Made by a program: the position numbers and the translations under genes. A DNA stretch of 36,712 nucleotides from the IMG/VR virus record IMGVR_UViG_3300043395_002709, positions 1 through 36,712 of that record; one strand, written 5' to 3'. This document shows, one piece after another, positions 3,170 to 35,662 of the stretch. Every line of letters begins with the position of its first letter. Within the stretch, counting starts at the first letter, position 1. Under the pieces are notes generated by a model. The model was not told the DNA's origin and made no database searches. It worked only from the letters and a program-made list of their open reading frames with translations. The DNA is from a virus.

Positions 3170-6100
3170 ATGAGCCAAAACATTGCACAGTTAATGAACG
3201 CTCCCCAAGGTGGGAGGGTTGGAGCCATTAAAGCCGGTAGTGGCGTAACAATTTCCCCCGATGGCACGGTTAATGTTACTACTCAAGTCGGCCCTCCTGG
3301 CCCTCCTGGCCCAACAGGTGGAGCTGGCCCGACTGGTCCAACGGGTGGAATCGGTCCAACGGGTCCAACGGGTGGAATCGGTCCAACGGGTCCAACGGGT
3401 GGACCTGGACCAGCTGGTCCTCCTGGTCCTCCTGGAGAAGTTGGCGTTACGCAAATTATTGCGGGAACAAACGTTACTATTGATCCTGTAGGTGGCACAG
3501 GAGCAGTGACTATCAACGCCTCGGGGGGAGGTGGAGGATACTGGAGTCTGAACGGATCCGCAATTTCTCCGTCTAACCTTAACTATAAAGTTGGAATTGG
3601 CACCACCACTCCAGAGACTCGCTTCTTTGTCGCCGAAGCTCCGCAGGATTCAGAATATTGGGTAACAACAGCAGGAGTCGATGACTTCCCCTACAGCACG
3701 ACCCAATTATATACTTTTTTCTCGGTTGTAAGAGGCGATTCAACGGGGAATACTTACGCAGGTGGCGGAGCCACAGATGTCCCGGTTGCTATTTTAGCTA
3801 AACTTGACCCAGCGGGTGCTCCCATTTGGGTTAAATACTTAACTCATGACCTCCCAAATAACGAATGTTACTTTAATGCGGTTGAAATTGGAAGCGACGG
3901 TTCAATTTACGCTACTGTGGCTATGGCTCCAAATCCATACAGGGTTACCCTGGTGAAGCTGGATCCTGCTGGCACAATTCTGTGGCAAAAGGAAATTGGA
4001 GATAACGACTCATCTTTCTCTTGTGCAGCTATCGCACTAACCAGCAATGATGAGATTTACTTGACTGGTCAGCTTCAAGTTTTATCGCCATTTGATCAGC
4101 CAAATATACCACTTTTAAAATTCGATTCTTCTGGAACCCTTCTCTGGAACATAACTATTTCCAGCCCCAATGACACCGTCTTTGACGGCGATGATTTTGC
4201 GACTGCTATCCATTTAGATAGCGCCGAAAATATTTACATAGTAGGTAGCACCGGGGACATTAGACCGCCTCGCGTTAACTATCAAAAGCTCGCTCTTATC
4301 CTTAAACTCGATTCTTCTGGGAATTCACTTTGGGCAAATCAACTTGCCTATACGGGCTGGAGGGATAACCGTTACGTAAAGAATTTCATTCTTGATAGTC
4401 AAGACAATGCGTATGTGTTTACGGACTATGCGTTCTTAAAATTTGACTCTTCTGGAAACCTTGTTTGGGAGAAAGAGTCATATAATTTATATGGCAATGC
4501 AGTTTGCATTGACTCGCTAGATAACATCTATGTCGGTAAAACCCCTTACGGTTTTTATTACCCTAAACTTACGTACTATTGTGTCGACACTGACGGCGTA
4601 GTTCTTTGGCAAAATGATCTTACTTGTTCCACAAGTTTGGGTGACCCTCAGTACCAATACAGTAATTATATTACTATAGCGGGTGATAAAGTTACTCTAG
4701 GAGGCATAGGTGGAAACGGATTTGGGGTAGTTGCACACTTATCTGCCACCGGTTCATCTTTCTTTAGTCCACAGTTTGCCACGGAAACAACCTCTTATTC
4801 CTTTAGCCCAACATCAAACACGGAATTTGTTGTTCAACCTCTGGTGTACTCCACCTATGCCTTCACGGTGGTGCCAGGATCTCTTGCTACAAGCGTTGCT
4901 CCACCCAATTTTGGTTTTTCGACTTTTTACCAGGCAACAGCAACCTCAACTTTAAACGGAGTAACGAGAGCAGAGGATTTGCATGCGCAAGATTTCTATG
5001 TAAATGAGCTGCCCTTTGGAAAGAGCTCAGGGGTTACAAACACTCTTATCATCGGTAATTATGCAGGACCTCCGGTTGGCGGGTACTGCTACAACAGCAA
5101 CTTTATCGGAAAAGCGTCTGGACAGTATGAATTAAATGGCGGTGCTGACACTTACATAGGAGCCTATTCGGGAGCGGGGGCTCCCGGACCCCGGCTAGCA
5201 TATCTAGACATAGTTGTTTCAGCTACTGTGTTACCCTCTGCGGGGGACTTTGAATACCGTTTTCAAACGTATACTTCCGGCGGTGCATTAGCTGAAGGAT
5301 GGATTTATCGTGACATTGGCGGAAGATTGTCCAATGCAAACGGTCAACCGGTTTATGGTGCTCTGGTACGCTCCGCGTCTGGGGCGATAACCGACGGAGA
5401 GACTATTGTAATACCTGGGAATCAAATCGGCGGTGTATCCGGCGTGGATGACGCAACCATAACCATGATGTCGGAGGGGACCAACAATGAGTCTTGGGCT
5501 ACACTGGCTATCGGTAATTATGCTGGAAGTCAGACTTATGGGTATCAGTCTCAAAACATCCTTATAGGGGCTTATGCAGGTCAGTTCACAGGAGTAGACA
5601 ACGAGTTTAACCACATTTTCATCGGATCGTCCGCTGGACAAAAAGCATTCGGCGGCTTCTACAACCTTTACATCGGTGCATATGCGGGCCAATATGCGGG
5701 CGGGTTTTCTTCATTCTCAAACACATACATTGGCACAATGTCAGGTATGTACGCAGGCAACACGTTCTACCAGACATTCGTTGGCGCATATTCCGGGAAT
5801 AGCTACGTGTATGGTGGGGGAATGGAAGGCCCTCCAAACACCTTCCTTGGGGGTTTTGCGGGGGTAGGCGCAACCACAAGCGTCGCAAACACTTTTGTAG
5901 GGGTTTATTCCGCGGAGTGTTCAACAACTGGCTCGTATAATACGACACTCGGGGCATACGCAGGTGCTCGCATATCCACCGGTTCATACAACGTTTCTTT
6001 AGGTGTTGGCTCTGGGGGTGGTATATGGCCCATTTACAATTATAACACCCCCCATTTCCTGACCGGGTCCGGCAACACCTCGGTTGGTAGTTATGCTGGG

Positions 6101-7372
6101 GTTTACCTAAATGATACAGCTTGTTTAAACACTGCTGTCGGTTATTATGCGGGTCAAGGCCACTTATGCGCATACTGCGCCGGTAATTCATCTGGGGATG
6201 TGTTTAGAAACACTTCTATTGGCGCTCTTGCGGGGCAAAAATCCGCCTACAGTCAAGGTAATTTCTTCGGAGGTTATGCCGCAGGACGATACAGCGGTGG
6301 TTCATACAATGTTTACATTGGTGACCGTGCTGGAAGATCTAACAACGGTTGGTGGAACGTTTTCCTTGGGTTAAAGGTAGGCTATTACTCAGGGTCGGCG
6401 GAAAACAGTGTATTTATCGGAAATTGCTCCGGTTACAATACTACAGTTCCCAACTTAAATGTATTTATTGGGGATCGGGCAGGTTTTGGTAATACCTCGG
6501 GGGCTAGCAATACTTTTGTTGGGTCTTCGGCGGGTTTATGCCAAACTACAGGTAGTTTTAACGCTTTCCTAGGAGCTTCAGCCGGGTGTTGTAACAGCAC
6601 AGGTTATTGCAACACCTTCCTTGGAGGTGCAGCCGGATGCGGGAACACTACAGGCAAGTTTAACACCTATGTCGGGACCTGTGCGGGCGGTTGGAAGGTT
6701 AATGGTGACTGTAACACCTACGTAGGCTACGAAGCCAACAATTGGTCTGGGACGGTAAGCAGCTCTGGAACGCGCAACAACTTCTTTGGTGTATGGGCAG
6801 GTAGATATAATACGGGGAGCGAAAACAGCTTCTTTGGTACTGGCTCAGGCAAGTCGAATGTTAGCGGAAACTACAACAGTTTCTTCGGCAACTGCGCGGC
6901 ATGTGCTTCAACAACAGGATCTAACAATATTGCGATTGGTTATTGTGCAGGTACTGATTCTGTTCTTGGCCTATCAACCCAATCCAATCAAATAGTTATC
7001 GGTAACAACAGCCACACCAATGCTTACATCAAGGTAAACTGGACCGTAACTTCCGACGAGCGCGACAAAACTTGCGTCACCGCTATTTCTCACGGTCGTG
7101 AACTGCTTGATAAACTAAACCCCGTTCAATACAACTGGAAAGACCGCGAGTCCGGTGAAGTCACCGACGAGCAGCCTCGTTACGGTTTCCTTGCTCAGCA
7201 AGTCCTAGAAGCCGAGGGAGAGCCTGCTATCTTAGTTGACGACAGCGACCCTGAAAACTTGAAACTGCGGGAATCGATGATGATCCCGGTCTTGTTTAAG
7301 ATCATTCAAGAAATGAATGAGGAGTTAAAGTCTCTTCGGGCAGAGGTTGAAGCCCTAAAACCTCAAGGGTAA
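3170..7372 (+). CDS. Giant tail fibre protein with collagen-like stalk, beta-propeller and S74 chaperone
   Basis: This 1400-residue paralogue of the preceding fibre starts 5 bases after its stop. In order: a short N-terminal segment ([10 protein letters not shown]) probably for virion attachment; a collagen-like Gly-X-Y stalk at about residues 40-88; a conserved ITID-type segment; a region at about 175-560 with seven K-L/F-D-x-x-G-x-x-x-W type repeats that looks like a seven-bladed SBBP/PQQ-like propeller; then many 16-17-residue glycine-rich repeats (NTFLG..AG). The S74 chaperone at the C-terminus has dyad Ser1295 and Lys1300 in SDERDK. By family rule the last ~106 residues would be released by self-cleavage after trimerisation. 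The propeller is absent from the visible part of the neighbour, so the two fibres probably differ in target. A coiled-coil-like tail ends the protein. Confidence 0.9.
3320..3400 (+). repeat. 27-bp tandem repeat coding collagen-like G-X-Y triplets
   Basis: Two identical 27-base units (3347-3373 and 3374-3400, beginning GGAATCGGTCCAACG) follow one imperfect copy. Each unit encodes nine residues of Gly-X-Y collagen-like stalk (GIGPTGPTG). The same triplets occur at the window start in the paralogous fibre gene. Such units are prone to slippage and recombination, which could change stalk length. Confidence 0.85.
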
Positions 7373-27567: not shown

Positions 27568-27827
27568 TGCTGGCCTCACAAGTTTCCTTTGAGTCGATGA
27601 TGCGAATTGCGTCGGGTCAGCGAGAGTTGGCCTTCGCAACGAGCTACCTCCAGGTGGAGTATGGTTTAGACGACCTGCGTGCCTGCTGGGATGGATTCAT
27701 TCACACCTCCGATAACTACGGCCAAGAGTTCAAATCACGAAAAGCAGTGTGCGAGGAATTTTCATATGCCCTCAATGAATACATCGAGTACCTCGGGGAA
27801 TCCCTTTATCTCAAAGTGGGACCGTAG
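27567..27827 (+). CDS. Hypothetical protein between mazG and deaminase
   Basis: 86 residues from ATG 27567 (TGATG overlap with the mazG stop). The product is helical and acidic (LAFATSYLQVEYGLDDLRACWDGF, AVCEEFSYALNEYIEYL). Its last 62 bases overlap the start of the dCMP deaminase gene in another frame. No known domain; the tight overlaps support translation. Confidence 0.5.
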   Translation: MLASQVSFESMMRIASGQRELAFATSYLQVEYGLDDLRACWDGFIHTSDNYGQEFKSRKAVCEEFSYALNEYIEYLGESLYLKVGP

Positions 27828-28398
27828 GTTCCTCCGCATTGCAGAGGAAATTCGAACCTGGAGTAAAGATCCAGGGACTAAAGTCGGTTGTGTGCTAGTT
27901 CAAGATCGCCGGATGATTGCTTCTGGCTACAACGGTTTTCCGAGCACACTCTCGGATTCTCTTGAGCTTTACGAAGACCGAAACTACAAACTCGCAGTGA
28001 CTGTGCATGCGGAAGCAAACGCAATCATGAACGCTGCAAAAAACGGTGCTAAGACAGAGTCTTGCACGGCATACGTCACCTTCCCGCCGTGTAGCCAATG
28101 TGCTGCTTCCTTAATTCAAGCGGGTGTGAAAAGGGTCGTGTGCCCGGACCCAGCGAATGCCCCTGAAAGGTGGAGGGCAAGTTTCAAGCTGGCGAATAAC
28201 ATGTTATATGATTCGGGCGTGGAACTTCTCTACTATTCAGAGGCAGACTTACAATGTCGAACAGAAACTGTCCCGTATGCGGAGCCCACTGGGTTGACGG
28301 GCAACTTTACTGGAGCACCGGAAAACCCGGTAAAGACGCCGATCTCAATGCACTTGTTTGCCGAAGACTTCCTCCGGAAAAGGCGGAGAGATGCGTGA
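27766..28398 (+). CDS. Deoxycytidylate (dCMP) deaminase
   Basis: 210 residues from ATG 27766, which has GAGGA 8-12 bases upstream. Zinc-site motifs of the cytidine-deaminase fold are complete: HAEANA (His81, catalytic Glu83) and PPCSQC (Cys109, Cys112), with GYNGFP upstream as in other dCMP deaminases. The enzyme turns dCMP into dUMP, the substrate for ThyX. The catalytic domain should end at about residue 160. The remaining 50 residues run across the start of the next gene in another frame and look like non-conserved read-through, so the original stop may have been lost. In-frame starts upstream to 27679 lie inside the previous gene and add no conserved sequence. Confidence 0.88.
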   Translation: MPSMNTSSTSGNPFISKWDRRFLRIAEEIRTWSKDPGTKVGCVLVQDRRMIASGYNGFPSTLSDSLELYEDRNYKLAVTVHAEANAIMNAAKNGAKTESCTAYVTFPPCSQCAASLIQAGVKRVVCPDPANAPERWRASFKLANNMLYDSGVELLYYSEADLQCRTETVPYAEPTGLTGNFTGAPENPVKTPISMHLFAEDFLRKRRRDA

Positions 28399-28491: not shown

Positions 28492-28525
28492 AACCGCCCT
28501 GACTGGGGGCGGTTTGCCCCCTTTT
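28492..28525 (+). terminator. Rho-independent terminator
   Basis: Stem AACCGCCC (28492-28499) / GGGCGGTT (28507-28514) with a seven-base loop, then TGCCCCCTTTT. The T-run is short (28522-28525) and overlaps the -35 region of the next promoter. It separates the deaminase operon from the sigma-factor operon. Confidence 0.7.
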
Positions 28526-28550
28526 CGTGTAGGCCGAAACGCGGTATACT
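28522..28550 (+). promoter_or_regulatory. Sigma70-like promoter of sigma-factor operon
   Basis: TATACT (28545-28550) is 17 bases after TTTTCG (28522-28527). The -10 is strong and the -35 weak. Predicted start near 28557 favours the ATG at 28571 over the upstream ATG 28562. Confidence 0.55.
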
Positions 28551-28570
28551 TATTACAGTTGATGAGAACC

Positions 28571-29161
28571 ATGAGCAACGACCAAACCTTCTACAACGCT
28601 GTCAAGGGTGACGCCCGCGCTGTTACGCAAGTGATTCGGCAATACACCCCGCTCGTTCACAAGCTGGTGAACAAGTACTGCTGGATGGCGCCGAAGCACA
28701 GCCGAGAGGACCTGGTGCAAGAGGGTCTTCTGGGTATCGTGAAAGCGATCGAGACCTTTGATCTCGAGAAAGGCTGCAAGCCAATGACCTGGATTTATCC
28801 GCAAGTTCGCGGCGCAGTTCAAGGTTTGGCTCGAAAGGAAAACCGGAACCCGAAATATCCGCTGTCTCTGGAACAATCCGATTGGGCCAAAAACCTTGAA
28901 GACCCGAGCCAATTTGAGGTTCGTGATGAGGTTGTCTCCGGAAAAATTCGTGATATTGTGCTTGCCGGCTGCGGTTCACTTGATAGCAAGCGAGCTCAGA
29001 TTGTGTGCTCCCGTTACGGCCTTCTGGGTGAAAAGGAGCTTCGTCAGGGCGAGGTCGCCAAGAAGTTTGGTATGAGCAAGCAAGCAATCAACTCACATAT
29101 CGCACGCTTTGGTAAAATCGTGCGTGAAAAGCACCCCGAGCTGGAGGCTCTGATTAAGTGA
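28571..29161 (+). CDS. Phage RNA polymerase sigma factor (sigma70 family)
   Basis: 196 residues from ATG 28571; another ATG nine bases upstream (28562) is possible. Region 2 is clear: HSREDLVQEGLLGIVKAIET with the following FDLEKG, TWIYPQVRGAV (residues ~44-84), covering the core-binding and -10-recognition helices. A region 4-like helix-turn-helix (residues ~159-185, QGEVAKKFGMSKQAINSHI) lies at the C-terminus. Phage sigma factors of this kind (T4 gp55 group) direct host RNA polymerase to late genes. It has its own promoter and opens an operon with a thioredoxin-like protein, SpeD and small genes. A second, different sigma-like gene lies at 34979. Confidence 0.82.
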   Translation: MSNDQTFYNAVKGDARAVTQVIRQYTPLVHKLVNKYCWMAPKHSREDLVQEGLLGIVKAIETFDLEKGCKPMTWIYPQVRGAVQGLARKENRNPKYPLSLEQSDWAKNLEDPSQFEVRDEVVSGKIRDIVLAGCGSLDSKRAQIVCSRYGLLGEKELRQGEVAKKFGMSKQAINSHIARFGKIVREKHPELEALIK

Positions 29162-31500: not shown

Positions 31501-32100
31501 GTGAACATTTTCGCTGTCAGTGACAACCCACTTATCGCTGCTTGCCAATTACCCGACAAACTTGTCGTCAAAATGCCTACGGAGAGCATCCAGATGCTGA
31601 TTCCGTGGGCTTTTAACACGCATCAAGTTTACATCGAAAAACCCGACGGGACCCTATACCGGACGAAAGGATTTGCTCACCATCCTTGTTCAAAGTGGCT
31701 CTACGAAAGTCCCGCAAATGTTGTTTGGTTGCTTGAACATGCGTGCGCAATGTGCGAGGAGTACACCGCCCGTTATCACAAGACGCATGGCGTTGTCTAC
31801 GCACTGTCACAGCTAACTGATCTAATTGCTTGGCACTACCCCGACGCAGACTCACACGATCACACACCTTTTGTTCAGGCAATGCCTGATGAGTTCAAGG
31901 TCCCTGGTGATTCTGTTCAAGCGTACCGCAATTACATTAACGGTTACAAGGGTTACGCTGTGTGGAACTACAGCGAAAAGCCCGACTGGTGGGACGAAGC
32001 CAAACACGAGCCCGTCCGCAAACAATACCTCGCTGAGCGAGAAGCCAAACGTATGAAGCGTCAGCATGACAAGCATTCGAGAGTACCGTCAACCGTATAA
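31501..32100 (+). CDS. Conserved phage protein of unknown function
   Basis: 199 residues from GTG 31501 just after a strong promoter. The start, MNIFAVSDNPLIAACQLPDK, followed by LVVKMPTESIQML, is the N-terminal signature of a widespread phage family (NIF...xxP..AA..L.DKHVVKM..E..QML) of unknown role; here the usual His of DKHVVKM is replaced by Leu. Later segments (PCSKWLYESPANVVWLLEHA, YHKTHGV) are also family-like. The Lys/Arg-rich end overlaps nrdB by 35 bases. A role in DNA or nucleotide metabolism is plausible from context. Confidence 0.65.
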   Translation: MNIFAVSDNPLIAACQLPDKLVVKMPTESIQMLIPWAFNTHQVYIEKPDGTLYRTKGFAHHPCSKWLYESPANVVWLLEHACAMCEEYTARYHKTHGVVYALSQLTDLIAWHYPDADSHDHTPFVQAMPDEFKVPGDSVQAYRNYINGYKGYAVWNYSEKPDWWDEAKHEPVRKQYLAEREAKRMKRQHDKHSRVPSTV

Positions 32101-33046
32101 AGTGAACGGGGAATTTGAGTTCCCCGAGTTCTTTGAAGCCTATCACAAAGCCCAGTCTTCTCAGTGGCGCCCGCAAGAAGTTTCCTTCGAGAGCGACATC
32201 CGAGACTGGCAAAACTCTTCTCCAGAAGAACGCGAAATTATCGGTGGTATCCTACGTGGGTTCACCCAACTTGAGTGCCATGTGAGCGACTACTGGGCAA
32301 ACATCCCAAACTGGTTTCCGAAACATGAAATTTCTGCTGTAGCACGGGCTTTCTCTCTTTCTGAGATTGTTCATGCCGAAGCTTACAATCTTCTCTCTGA
32401 TACCTTGGGGCTAGATGAATTCGAAGCATTCCTCGGAGATCCCGTCGCCCAACAGAAGATCGGCTACTTCCTTGAAAGTCGAGGAGTTAAAGAGTCTCTT
32501 GCTGTGTTTAGCGGTGCTGGCGAAGGTGTTTCTCTATTCAGCTCTTTTGCTGTTTTGCTATCCCTTAACCTTACTGGGCGTTTCAAAGGAATCGCTCAAA
32601 TCATTTCTTGGTCGGCTCTTGACGAGCAGCAGCACTCCGACACCGGAATCCAACTCTTCCGACAGTTAATCGAAGAGGATCCGTTAACCTCTGATGAGGC
32701 TGAGATGATCTCGCAAGGATTCAAAGCAGTGCTGAGAAACGAGGAAGCATTCCTCGATCAAATCTTCAAGAATCGAACGCTCAGCACCATCAATCTGTAT
32801 GATGCAAAACAATATCTTCGCTGGCGGGCGAATGAGCGATTGACCAAACTTGGGATCTCGGTTCCAATGTTCCACGTGGACAACGAAGCTGCTGACCGCA
32901 TCAAATCGTGGTTCCACCCGTTGATGGCGGGCGCCACCAGCACCGACTTCTTCGCTCAGTCAAAAGATGGCGGCAATTACATTTCGAAACCAACCCAAGA
33001 TTTCATGGGTGTTAACCTGAAGACTCTCGATCTTGTCCTTGTATGA
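32066..33046 (+). CDS. nrdB: Class I ribonucleotide reductase, small (beta) subunit
   Basis: 326 residues with a ferritin-like di-metal site: Glu70 (FTQLECHV), Glu100-x-x-His103 with radical Tyr107 (EIVHAEAY), Glu153 (GEGVSLF), and Glu187-x-x-His190 (DEQQH). Retaining Tyr107 fits a class Ia/b tyrosyl-radical enzyme. The beta subunit generates the radical that the alpha subunit uses to reduce ribonucleotides. Start ATG 32066 overlaps the upstream gene by 35 bases, and the stop overlaps nrdA's ATG (ATGA). Confidence 0.93.
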   Translation: MTSIREYRQPYKVNGEFEFPEFFEAYHKAQSSQWRPQEVSFESDIRDWQNSSPEEREIIGGILRGFTQLECHVSDYWANIPNWFPKHEISAVARAFSLSEIVHAEAYNLLSDTLGLDEFEAFLGDPVAQQKIGYFLESRGVKESLAVFSGAGEGVSLFSSFAVLLSLNLTGRFKGIAQIISWSALDEQQHSDTGIQLFRQLIEEDPLTSDEAEMISQGFKAVLRNEEAFLDQIFKNRTLSTINLYDAKQYLRWRANERLTKLGISVPMFHVDNEAADRIKSWFHPLMAGATSTDFFAQSKDGGNYISKPTQDFMGVNLKTLDLVLV

Positions 33047-34977
33047 CCGACCCAATCGCTCCCGAATGGCTCTCAGAAGAGGGCATGCACACCCTGTCAG
33101 CGGGTTATTTATTGCCGGGGGAAACGCCTCGCGCAATGTTTGAACGGGTTTCTCAAGCCGCCGCAAAAATCAATGAAGACGAATCGCTCTCTGAAGACCT
33201 TTTTACTTGTTTATGGAATGGGTGGATTGGCCTCGCTTCTCCTGTTGCTGCCAACTTCGGTACTTCCCGTGCTCTTCCAATCAGCTGCTATAGCGTTCAT
33301 CTCAGTGACTCTGTATCGAGTATTTACTCGCACCTTAAAGAAGTCGCGCAGCTGAGTAAGAACGGTGGTGGTGTTGGGGTTTATTTTGGCGATGTTCGCC
33401 CTTCTGGTGCTCCTATCACAGGTGGTGGAAAGTCTACGGGAATAGTTCCCTGGGCACAACAATACGACCTGGCAGCCAGAGTTGTATCCCAAGGTGGTGT
33501 TCGCCGAGGCTCATTTGCAATTTACTTGCCGATTGATCACCCCGATGTCCCCGAACTTCTTCGCGCAAAGGACCACACCAAAGGTGATCCTCGCAAATTC
33601 ATTGATTCTAACGTTGCTCTGACGATTACGGACGAGTGGGTAGAGTCGATGCTTGCTGGCGATATGCACAAGCAAGAGTTGTTCGGTGAAGTGCTAAAGA
33701 CTCGGATGATTTCCGGGTCGCCCTATCTTGTCTTCATTGACAACGCTAATCGCCAGAACCCCGAATGCTACACTGAGCGTGGCCTTTCGGTTAAAACTTC
33801 AAACCTCTGTTCAGAAATCTTCCTGCACACCGATGAGCATCATTCGTTCGTCTGCGTCCTCAGTAGTCTCAATCTTAGTCGGTATGACGACTTTAGTGGG
33901 TGGAAATCTCCTACTTCAGGACGTACAGTCCCCCAACTCGCGATTCATCTCCTGGACGCAGTCGTTAGCGAATTCATTCGAAAAGCAAAAGACAAAGTGG
34001 GCCTCGGTCGCTCCGTCCGATTTGCTGAGAAAAGTCGCGCCCTAGGTTTGGGCACAATGGGCCTTCATACTCTGTACCAGAAACGTGGATTACCTTTCAG
34101 CTCGTCTAGCGCTCGCCAACTCAACGTCGAAACACATCGTTGGGTTCGAGAACAAGCAGAAATTGCCTCACGAGAACTGGCAGCGCGGTTTGGGGAGCCG
34201 GAGTGGTGCGTGGGATCCGGCAGGCGCCATACTCATCTTATTGCTGTTGCTCCTACTCGGACCAATAGTGTTATTAGTGGAGCATTTAGCCAGGGAATCG
34301 AACCGATTGATTCAAACTACTTTGTTGCGAAACAAGCCAAAGGAACTTACGTCCGAAAGAACCCCGTTCTAGAAAAGCTTCTGTGCGACCGAGGTGTTGG
34401 TCCCGAAGTTTGGGAGCAGATTCTTGAAGCCAAAGGCAGTGTCCAAGACTTGCCTTGCCTGACCGATTACGAGAAGGAAATCTTCAAAACTGCAAGAGAA
34501 ATCGACCAGTTTGAGTTGATTAAGCAGGCATCTGACCGCCAGCAGTTTATTTGCCAAGGCCAGAGTCTAAACCTGTTTGTTGACCCTGAGTCCGACGCAG
34601 CTTACATTATGCGCCTTCACCTTTCGGCGTGGAAAATGGGTCTGAAGTCCCTTTACTACCTGAAGTCCAGCTCCCTGCTCACAAAGAAGAAGGTTGTTCC
34701 AGCTTTGGTTGTTACCAAAGAAGGCTGCCCTTGGTGTGACAAACTGAAAGAGGCTCTGAGCGAAAACGAGATTGTTTACCAGGAGATTTCAAAGGAAGAA
34801 GCCCAAGAGAAGGGTTACTGGAACTCTGAATGGAAAACGGTTCCTCAGCTGTGGCTTTACAAAAAGCACATCGGCGGCTATACTGACTTTGTTCAGTATG
34901 CCCAGACTTCTCAGATTCCGCAACAAACTGACACCGAAACCAAGAACTATGCCGAATGCACTGCTTGCGAGGCCTAA
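33043..34977 (+). CDS. nrdA: Class I ribonucleotide reductase large subunit with internal glutaredoxin domain
   Basis: 644 residues. RNR barrel motifs are present: Cys82 (ISCYS) and Cys271 (FVCVLSSLNL) as the redox pair, NLCSE with Asn254, radical Cys256 and Glu258, and the Tyr538-Tyr539 pair (SLYYL) for radical transfer. There is no N-terminal ATP-cone; the chain starts at the barrel region. After the barrel (~residue 545) a glutaredoxin-like domain is inserted (~551-620): VVPALVVTKEGCPWCDKL, active site Cys562-Pro-Trp-Cys565, cis-Pro601 in TVPQ, and IGGYTD. The usual C-terminal swinging tail with Cys639-x-x-Cys642 (ECTACEA) follows. Glutaredoxin normally re-reduces that tail, so the enzyme carries its own reductase. 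It shares an operon with nrdB. Confidence 0.92.
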   Translation: MTDPIAPEWLSEEGMHTLSAGYLLPGETPRAMFERVSQAAAKINEDESLSEDLFTCLWNGWIGLASPVAANFGTSRALPISCYSVHLSDSVSSIYSHLKEVAQLSKNGGGVGVYFGDVRPSGAPITGGGKSTGIVPWAQQYDLAARVVSQGGVRRGSFAIYLPIDHPDVPELLRAKDHTKGDPRKFIDSNVALTITDEWVESMLAGDMHKQELFGEVLKTRMISGSPYLVFIDNANRQNPECYTERGLSVKTSNLCSEIFLHTDEHHSFVCVLSSLNLSRYDDFSGWKSPTSGRTVPQLAIHLLDAVVSEFIRKAKDKVGLGRSVRFAEKSRALGLGTMGLHTLYQKRGLPFSSSSARQLNVETHRWVREQAEIASRELAARFGEPEWCVGSGRRHTHLIAVAPTRTNSVISGAFSQGIEPIDSNYFVAKQAKGTYVRKNPVLEKLLCDRGVGPEVWEQILEAKGSVQDLPCLTDYEKEIFKTAREIDQFELIKQASDRQQFICQGQSLNLFVDPESDAAYIMRLHLSAWKMGLKSLYYLKSSSLLTKKKVVPALVVTKEGCPWCDKLKEALSENEIVYQEISKEEAQEKGYWNSEWKTVPQLWLYKKHIGGYTDFVQYAQTSQIPQQTDTETKNYAECTACEA

Positions 34978-34978
34978 A

Positions 34979-35662
34979 ATGACTCGCCGTCGCAACAAAA
35001 AATACCCCAGATTAACACCCGAACAACAGAAACTTGTATCAGAACATACGTGGATCGCGGGGAGGTTGGCATACGGTGCCAAATGTTTGACGGGCGGACA
35101 CACGGGTTCTCTCACTCGAGAGGACCTCGAGTCCGTTGCTAAATTTGCCCTTTGCGTTGCTGCAACTCGGTATAAACCCGAGATGAACGTAAAATACAGC
35201 ACTTACGCCTGGAATACCGCTCGCGGTTACATACAGCATGCTCTTCGAGACTATTCTCGAATGGTTAGAACTCCGCGCTGGATTGCCAACTACCGGAACA
35301 AAATCTCCGCACTCGTGAAAGAGGGCAAGTCCTACAAGGAAATTGCTGATATTCTGGGTCTTGACGAGGCAAAAGTTCTTAGCTGTGAGATGTCCGAGAA
35401 CAACTACCATGTCTCGTACGATAGCTCACCCGAAGACTGGAGCACACCAGAGTTTGTTTACAACTTTGAAGAGCATAAAGCAACATTGCTAAGTCCACAC
35501 CTCATTGGCGAGATTCGGGGGCTGAGTGACGCAGAGATGGTGATGCTTCTGAAATACGTGGAAGGCGAGGACATGAGCGAGGAAGAGAGGGAGTATGCTT
35601 CGGAAAAATTCTATGAACTGCAGGCAATCGCACATGGATTCCGAGAAGAGTTTCGAGATTAA
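34979..35662 (+). CDS. Second phage sigma70-like factor
   Basis: 227 residues from ATG 34979; starts upstream lie inside nrdA. Residues ~46-101 form a sigma region 2/3 unit: LTREDLESVAKFALCVAATR, YSTYAWNTARGYIQHALRDY, then MVRTPRW. The 'YA...ARGYIQH.LRD.SR.VR.PRW' order is that of sigma70 family regions 2.3-3.0. A helix-turn-helix (GKSYKEIADILGLDEAKVLS, ~117-136) follows. The rest is acidic and helical. It differs from the sigma factor at 28571. It starts one base after the nrdA stop, which may couple the two. Likely directs a different class of phage promoters. Confidence 0.75.
   Translation: MTRRRNKKYPRLTPEQQKLVSEHTWIAGRLAYGAKCLTGGHTGSLTREDLESVAKFALCVAATRYKPEMNVKYSTYAWNTARGYIQHALRDYSRMVRTPRWIANYRNKISALVKEGKSYKEIADILGLDEAKVLSCEMSENNYHVSYDSSPEDWSTPEFVYNFEEHKATLLSPHLIGEIRGLSDAEMVMLLKYVEGEDMSEEEREYASEKFYELQAIAHGFREEFRD

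Follow-up and report, generated by a model that had tools for sequence, protein, structure and literature searches.

Class I ribonucleotide reductases (RNRs) re-reduce their active site through a C-terminal cysteine pair, which in turn receives electrons from thioredoxin, glutaredoxin (Grx) or NrdH (PMC6187632). In Facklamia ignava, a CPWC Grx fused with an ATP-cone to the N-terminus of the class Id NrdB acts as the reductant and drives glutathione (GSH)-dependent RNR turnover with a kcat of 1.4 per s (Rozman Grinberg et al. 2018, PMC6187632). The same paper lists Grx joined to NrdA, NrdB, NrdD and NrdJ, with grx::nrdA in two viruses. Class Id RNRs are further characterised by a superoxide-activated Mn2(III/IV) cofactor, and dithiol glutaredoxins by disulfide reduction that depends on GSH. 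The class Id alpha subunits of F. johnsoniae and A. ureae (6dqw, 6dqx) have neither an ATP-cone nor a Grx. The closest relatives of the protein described here are the class Id NrdAs of the cyanophages S-TIM5 and S-CBWM1, which are annotated only as NrdA or RNR alpha. PMC6370689 assigns the S-TIM5 RNR to class Id and refers to Grx solely as a stretch trimmed off beta sequences.

We analysed a 36.7-kb viral fragment (IMG/VR record IMGVR_UViG_3300043395_002709, positions 1 to 36,712; hereafter the window) that encodes a 644-aa NrdA in one intact frame with 0 internal stops (Table 1). Pfam searches of the product matched PF00317 (Ribonuc_red_lgN) at residues 10-76 (E 1e-8), PF02867 (Ribonuc_red_lgC) in three stretches (whole-protein E 1e-98) and PF00462 (Glutaredoxin) at residues 556-610 (score 39.8 bits, above the cut-off of 22.9). 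An AlphaFold model built on a 28-row alignment (mean pLDDT 84, pTM 0.79) contained a class I barrel, a poorly resolved linker, a confidently folded Grx domain and a disordered tail, with very low confidence in the placement of linker and tail. Foldseek matched the full model to the class Id alpha structures 6dqx and 6dqw (TM-score by target 0.94-0.97), which share the barrel fold at 39-40% identity. The Grx and tail, modelled separately with modest confidence (pLDDT 71, pTM 0.55), gave the glutaredoxins 4tr0 and 3grx as top matches (E about 2e-5). Pfam, AlphaFold and Foldseek are thus concordant on the NrdA-Grx-tail architecture. The protein has the all-alpha and barrel domains, Cys triad, tyrosine pair and CxxC tail of a class I alpha subunit, and its inserted domain combines a predicted thioredoxin-type fold with the CPxC motif and cis-Pro (TVP) of a dithiol glutaredoxin. 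The initial annotation had proposed a Grx lodged between the barrel and redox tail of NrdA; the ORF and all three methods bear this out, the predicted Grx fold of residues 552-622 included, and every redox residue that it named was found in its place, Pro601 being positioned by counting from C562 to the TVP motif.

Table 1. Features of the nrdB-nrdA region of the window.
Feature	Position	Strand	Evidence
NrdB, 326 aa, class Id-like beta, Tyr107/Glu70 pairing	32066..33046	+	PF00268; best PDB match 6cwo; sequence
NrdA-Grx-tail fusion, 644 aa	33043..34974, stop codon to 34977	+	ORF, Pfam, AlphaFold model
All-alpha domain and barrel, class Id-like NrdA, residues 1-541; C82, C256, C271, Y538, Y539	33043..34665	+	PF00317, PF02867; 6dqx/6dqw structural match; invariant residues
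Linker, residues 542-551	34666..34695	+	pLDDT <50
Glutaredoxin domain, residues 552-622; CPWC 562-565, cis-Pro601, GGY 611-613	34696..34908	+	PF00462; pLDDT 80-90; Foldseek Grx matches; invariant CPxC, TVPQ, GGY
Disordered redox tail, residues 623-644, end ECTACEA (C639, C642)	34909..34974	+	model; terminal CxxC in 168/168 fused ORFs
Sigma-70-like factor, directly 3' of nrdA	34982..35662	+	phrog_351 E 1.5e-16; gene order as in S-CBWM1

The window RNR is class Id-like, as judged from its nearest structures and the Tyr/Glu pairing used as a class Id beta criterion (PMC8463856). NrdA is closest to known class Id alpha subunits, and NrdB, whose E70 and Y107 align to 6cwo, matched that structure best in the PDB (E 5e-36). 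Pfam found no ATP-cone in NrdA and neither an ATP-cone nor a Grx in the window NrdB. The absence of the cone from NrdA had been noted correctly from the start, together with the suggestion that allosteric shut-off may be missing. Since both subunits are without a cone, cone-mediated dATP shut-off is indeed absent, as in other cone-less class Id systems; this state is, however, normal for class Id alpha.

The stop codon of nrdB and the start codon of nrdA overlap as ATGA, and the NrdB-NrdA-sigma order is that of S-CBWM1. A dCMP deaminase and two sigma-70-like factors (27679-28398, 28514-29161 and 34982-35662) also follow the S-CBWM1 order, which suggests that the window is a fragment of an S-CBWM1-like cyanophage. 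Immediately 5' of nrdB lies a pyrimidine dimer DNA glycosylase-like gene (31501-32100; PF03013, E 6e-8). Farther upstream, 3170-7372 encodes a probable tail fibre of 1400 aa that contains collagen-like repeats and, at its C-terminus, an S74 endosialidase chaperone domain.

The fusion recurs widely. Across all loci collected, barrel and Grx occupied one ORF in 168 cases, 118 of them distinct, the second figure being given because some loci are overlapping stretches of one contig. Many close IMG/VR contigs carry it, about 20 full-length independent ones with the identical single-ORF layout. Tblastn matches in the isolates S-TIM5, S-TIM54, S-TIM61, S-TIM66 and S-CBWM1 contained the fusion and spanned 99-100% of the query, and the same domain order was found in S-TIM5, S-CBWM1, C48C1, PhiW-14 and nACB2. 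The S-TIM5 and S-CBWM1 NrdAs match the window protein over ~99% of its length at 59-66% identity, with CPYC in place of the CPWC of the window. The S-CBWM1 protein carries an annotated intein (L006:5763-6788); a 996-aa NrdA at L035:4195-7185 has an insert of similar size that is probably an intein too. A scan of viral contigs with PhiW-14 returned no match beyond PhiW-14 itself, and a partial survey of 80 bacterial class Id-like loci contained 0 Grx fusions.

All 168 fused ORFs end in a CxxC tail after the Grx, whose motif is CPWC in 114, CPYC in 36, CPFC in 15, CPHC in 2 and CPNC in 1. The redox residues of NrdA and the CPxC, TVPQ and GGY motifs of the Grx were invariant in the alignments. 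The Grx codons are under purifying selection (median dN/dS ~0.11 vs 0.05 for the barrel, from few pairs with near-saturated dS). Apart from the CxxC, the fused proteins vary most in their tail. Retention of the CxxC alongside a dithiol CPxC in each Grx indicates that the tail is still needed and has not been replaced by the Grx. In fused proteins a median of 27 residues separates the YY pair from the Grx, and a median of 17 separates the Grx from the tail Cys; in unfused NrdA the YY pair and the tail Cys are a median of 36 apart. Together with the shared ending ECxACEA/G, these distances fit insertion of the Grx into a pre-existing tail.

A tree of 43 NrdA barrels, which accommodates gain and loss of the Grx alike, grouped the window, S-TIM5, S-CBWM1 and relatives in one clade (support 100/100). 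C48C1, and PhiW-14 with nACB2, are fused but were placed elsewhere among unfused phages and bacterial rows. A single clade for all fused NrdAs was rejected (AU p=0.0002); one uniting C48C1, PhiW-14 and nACB2 was not rejected (AU p=0.076). On the barrel tree, fused NrdAs therefore make up two or more distinct lineages, so that the fusion originated, or was passed on, repeatedly. The Grx domains of both fused groups formed separate supported clades. For the Grx modules, a common origin was not rejected (p=0.093; 78 columns, three rows left out), and a Grx-tail module may therefore have moved from one NrdA lineage to another. With the row for a stand-alone Grx at L121:3280-3555 included, p was 0.0057, and this Grx fell inside the group. 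It is near the NrdA-inserted domains in sequence and lies between ORFs that resemble a sliding clamp and a clamp loader by sequence only. We give even odds to the proposal that phages placed Grx between the NrdA barrel and the redox tail at least twice independently, forming a one-chain relay from GSH through Grx and tail to the active site, at a position favoured by selection because the tail needs to remain mobile and at the chain end.

Five of the six fused-NrdA isolate genomes searched (S-TIM5, S-CBWM1, C48C1, PhiW-14 and nACB2) had one PF00462 match each, inside NrdA; the sixth, S-TIM54, had one extra match, below the cut-off. In the case of the window, a separate Grx may lie elsewhere in the genome, beyond the fragment. 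Other phages place the domain differently. Melnitz-1 NrdA is the sister of C48C1 NrdA (68% identity) and has no Grx; the sole Grx of Melnitz-1 is at the N-terminus of NrdB, whereas that of C48C1 is on NrdA. The Melnitz-1 NrdB is annotated as a 'hypothetical protein' (L314:4467-5675; PF00462 at 3-62, PF00268 at 89-361). ICP1 has a Grx at the NrdB C-terminus, a stand-alone grx gene lies 12-15 nt 3' of nrdA in Phosso and Atu_ph07, and the Grx genes of S-PM2 and P-HM2 are separate. No Grx was found in the genome search of Mx1, a near unfused relative, and the genomes of S-TIM5 and S-TIM54 include a gene for a thioredoxin-like protein as well. A phage Grx is thus not obligatory.

We consider it quite probable that the tethered Grx on this class Id-type NrdA is the enzyme's own reductant, recharging the tail and fed by host glutathione. 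In each turnover the barrel pair C82-C271 would become oxidised. The C639/C642 tail would reduce this pair and turn into a disulfide, a step established for class I RNR, and the tethered Grx, with C562 attacking and C565 resolving, would then reduce the tail either of its own chain (in cis) or of the other chain in the dimer. Glutaredoxins are recharged with NADPH through glutathione reductase and glutathione, all of which the host would supply here. Tethering would raise the local Grx concentration and free the phage from host Grx or thioredoxin, which may be in short supply or adapted to the host's own class II enzyme; marine cyanophage hosts carry class II RNR (PMC6370689). We infer this electron flow, its cis or trans geometry and the kinetic benefit. 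Since the F. ignava NrdB-Grx works with GSH, the most economical interpretation is that the Grx inserted into NrdA would do likewise, and a dithiol Grx between barrel and tail that is the only one in most of the fused isolate genomes makes a built-in reductant the best reading.

An alternative role for the domain would be deglutathionylation of RNR or host proteins, or alpha/beta assembly, with host redoxins reducing the RNR. Deglutathionylation is also a glutaredoxin activity (PMC6187632), and the thioredoxin-like protein of S-TIM5 and S-TIM54 is compatible with such a division of labour. We think this unlikely, given that the Grx adjoins the tail, that all members have a dithiol CPxC and that the NrdB-Grx precedent reduces RNR. 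It is more doubtful still that the Grx acts on the C82-C271 disulfide itself, with the CxxC tail left as a relic. The predicted tether of ~10 residues would hold the Grx near the barrel end, a point in favour of this route, but a relic should have been lost in some members, and universal retention of the CxxC in an otherwise variable tail argues against it.

That two genes were joined by an assembly or annotation error has a negligible chance of being correct. The adjacent nrdA and grx genes of Phosso and Atu_ph07 are what such an error could act on; however, many independent contigs and isolates share the ORF, a recurrence that excludes an artefact, frameshift or chimera and disposes of the concern that reads might reveal two frameshifted genes. 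Read-through from nrdA into a downstream grx is likewise a poor fit, as the redox tail follows the Grx, an order that loss of an intergenic stop codon would not yield.

For the built-in reductant, the claim of the initial annotation that RNR turnover is independent of host glutaredoxin or thioredoxin holds in part. Freedom from host glutaredoxin is plausible for the redoxin step only, to which the wording should be confined, because recharging the Grx keeps turnover dependent on host GSH and NADPH; the thioredoxin-like protein of S-TIM5 and S-TIM54 further qualifies the claim.

Like the Grx-RNR fusions of PMC6187632, the window protein holds Grx and an RNR subunit in one chain, and it shares attachment to NrdA with the viral grx::nrdA entries given there. 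It differs from the F. ignava protein in that the Grx lies inside NrdA before the tail, with no ATP-cone. Given more than 100 other phage proteins and the passing mention of such fusions in 2018, an NrdA-Grx fusion is not unique; we found no description in the open-access literature of the pre-tail position of the Grx or of its recurrence, and these two aspects appear undescribed there. The fusion is well conserved and its evolutionary pattern moderately interesting. Its recurrence in separate NrdA lineages, and the presence of Grx on NrdA, on either end of NrdB or in a neighbouring gene, suggest selection for tethering. The fusion offers a single-chain system for testing how a class I tail is recharged, in cis or in trans and by a dithiol or monothiol route, and it shows how lytic phages arrive with reducing power of their own for making DNA precursors.
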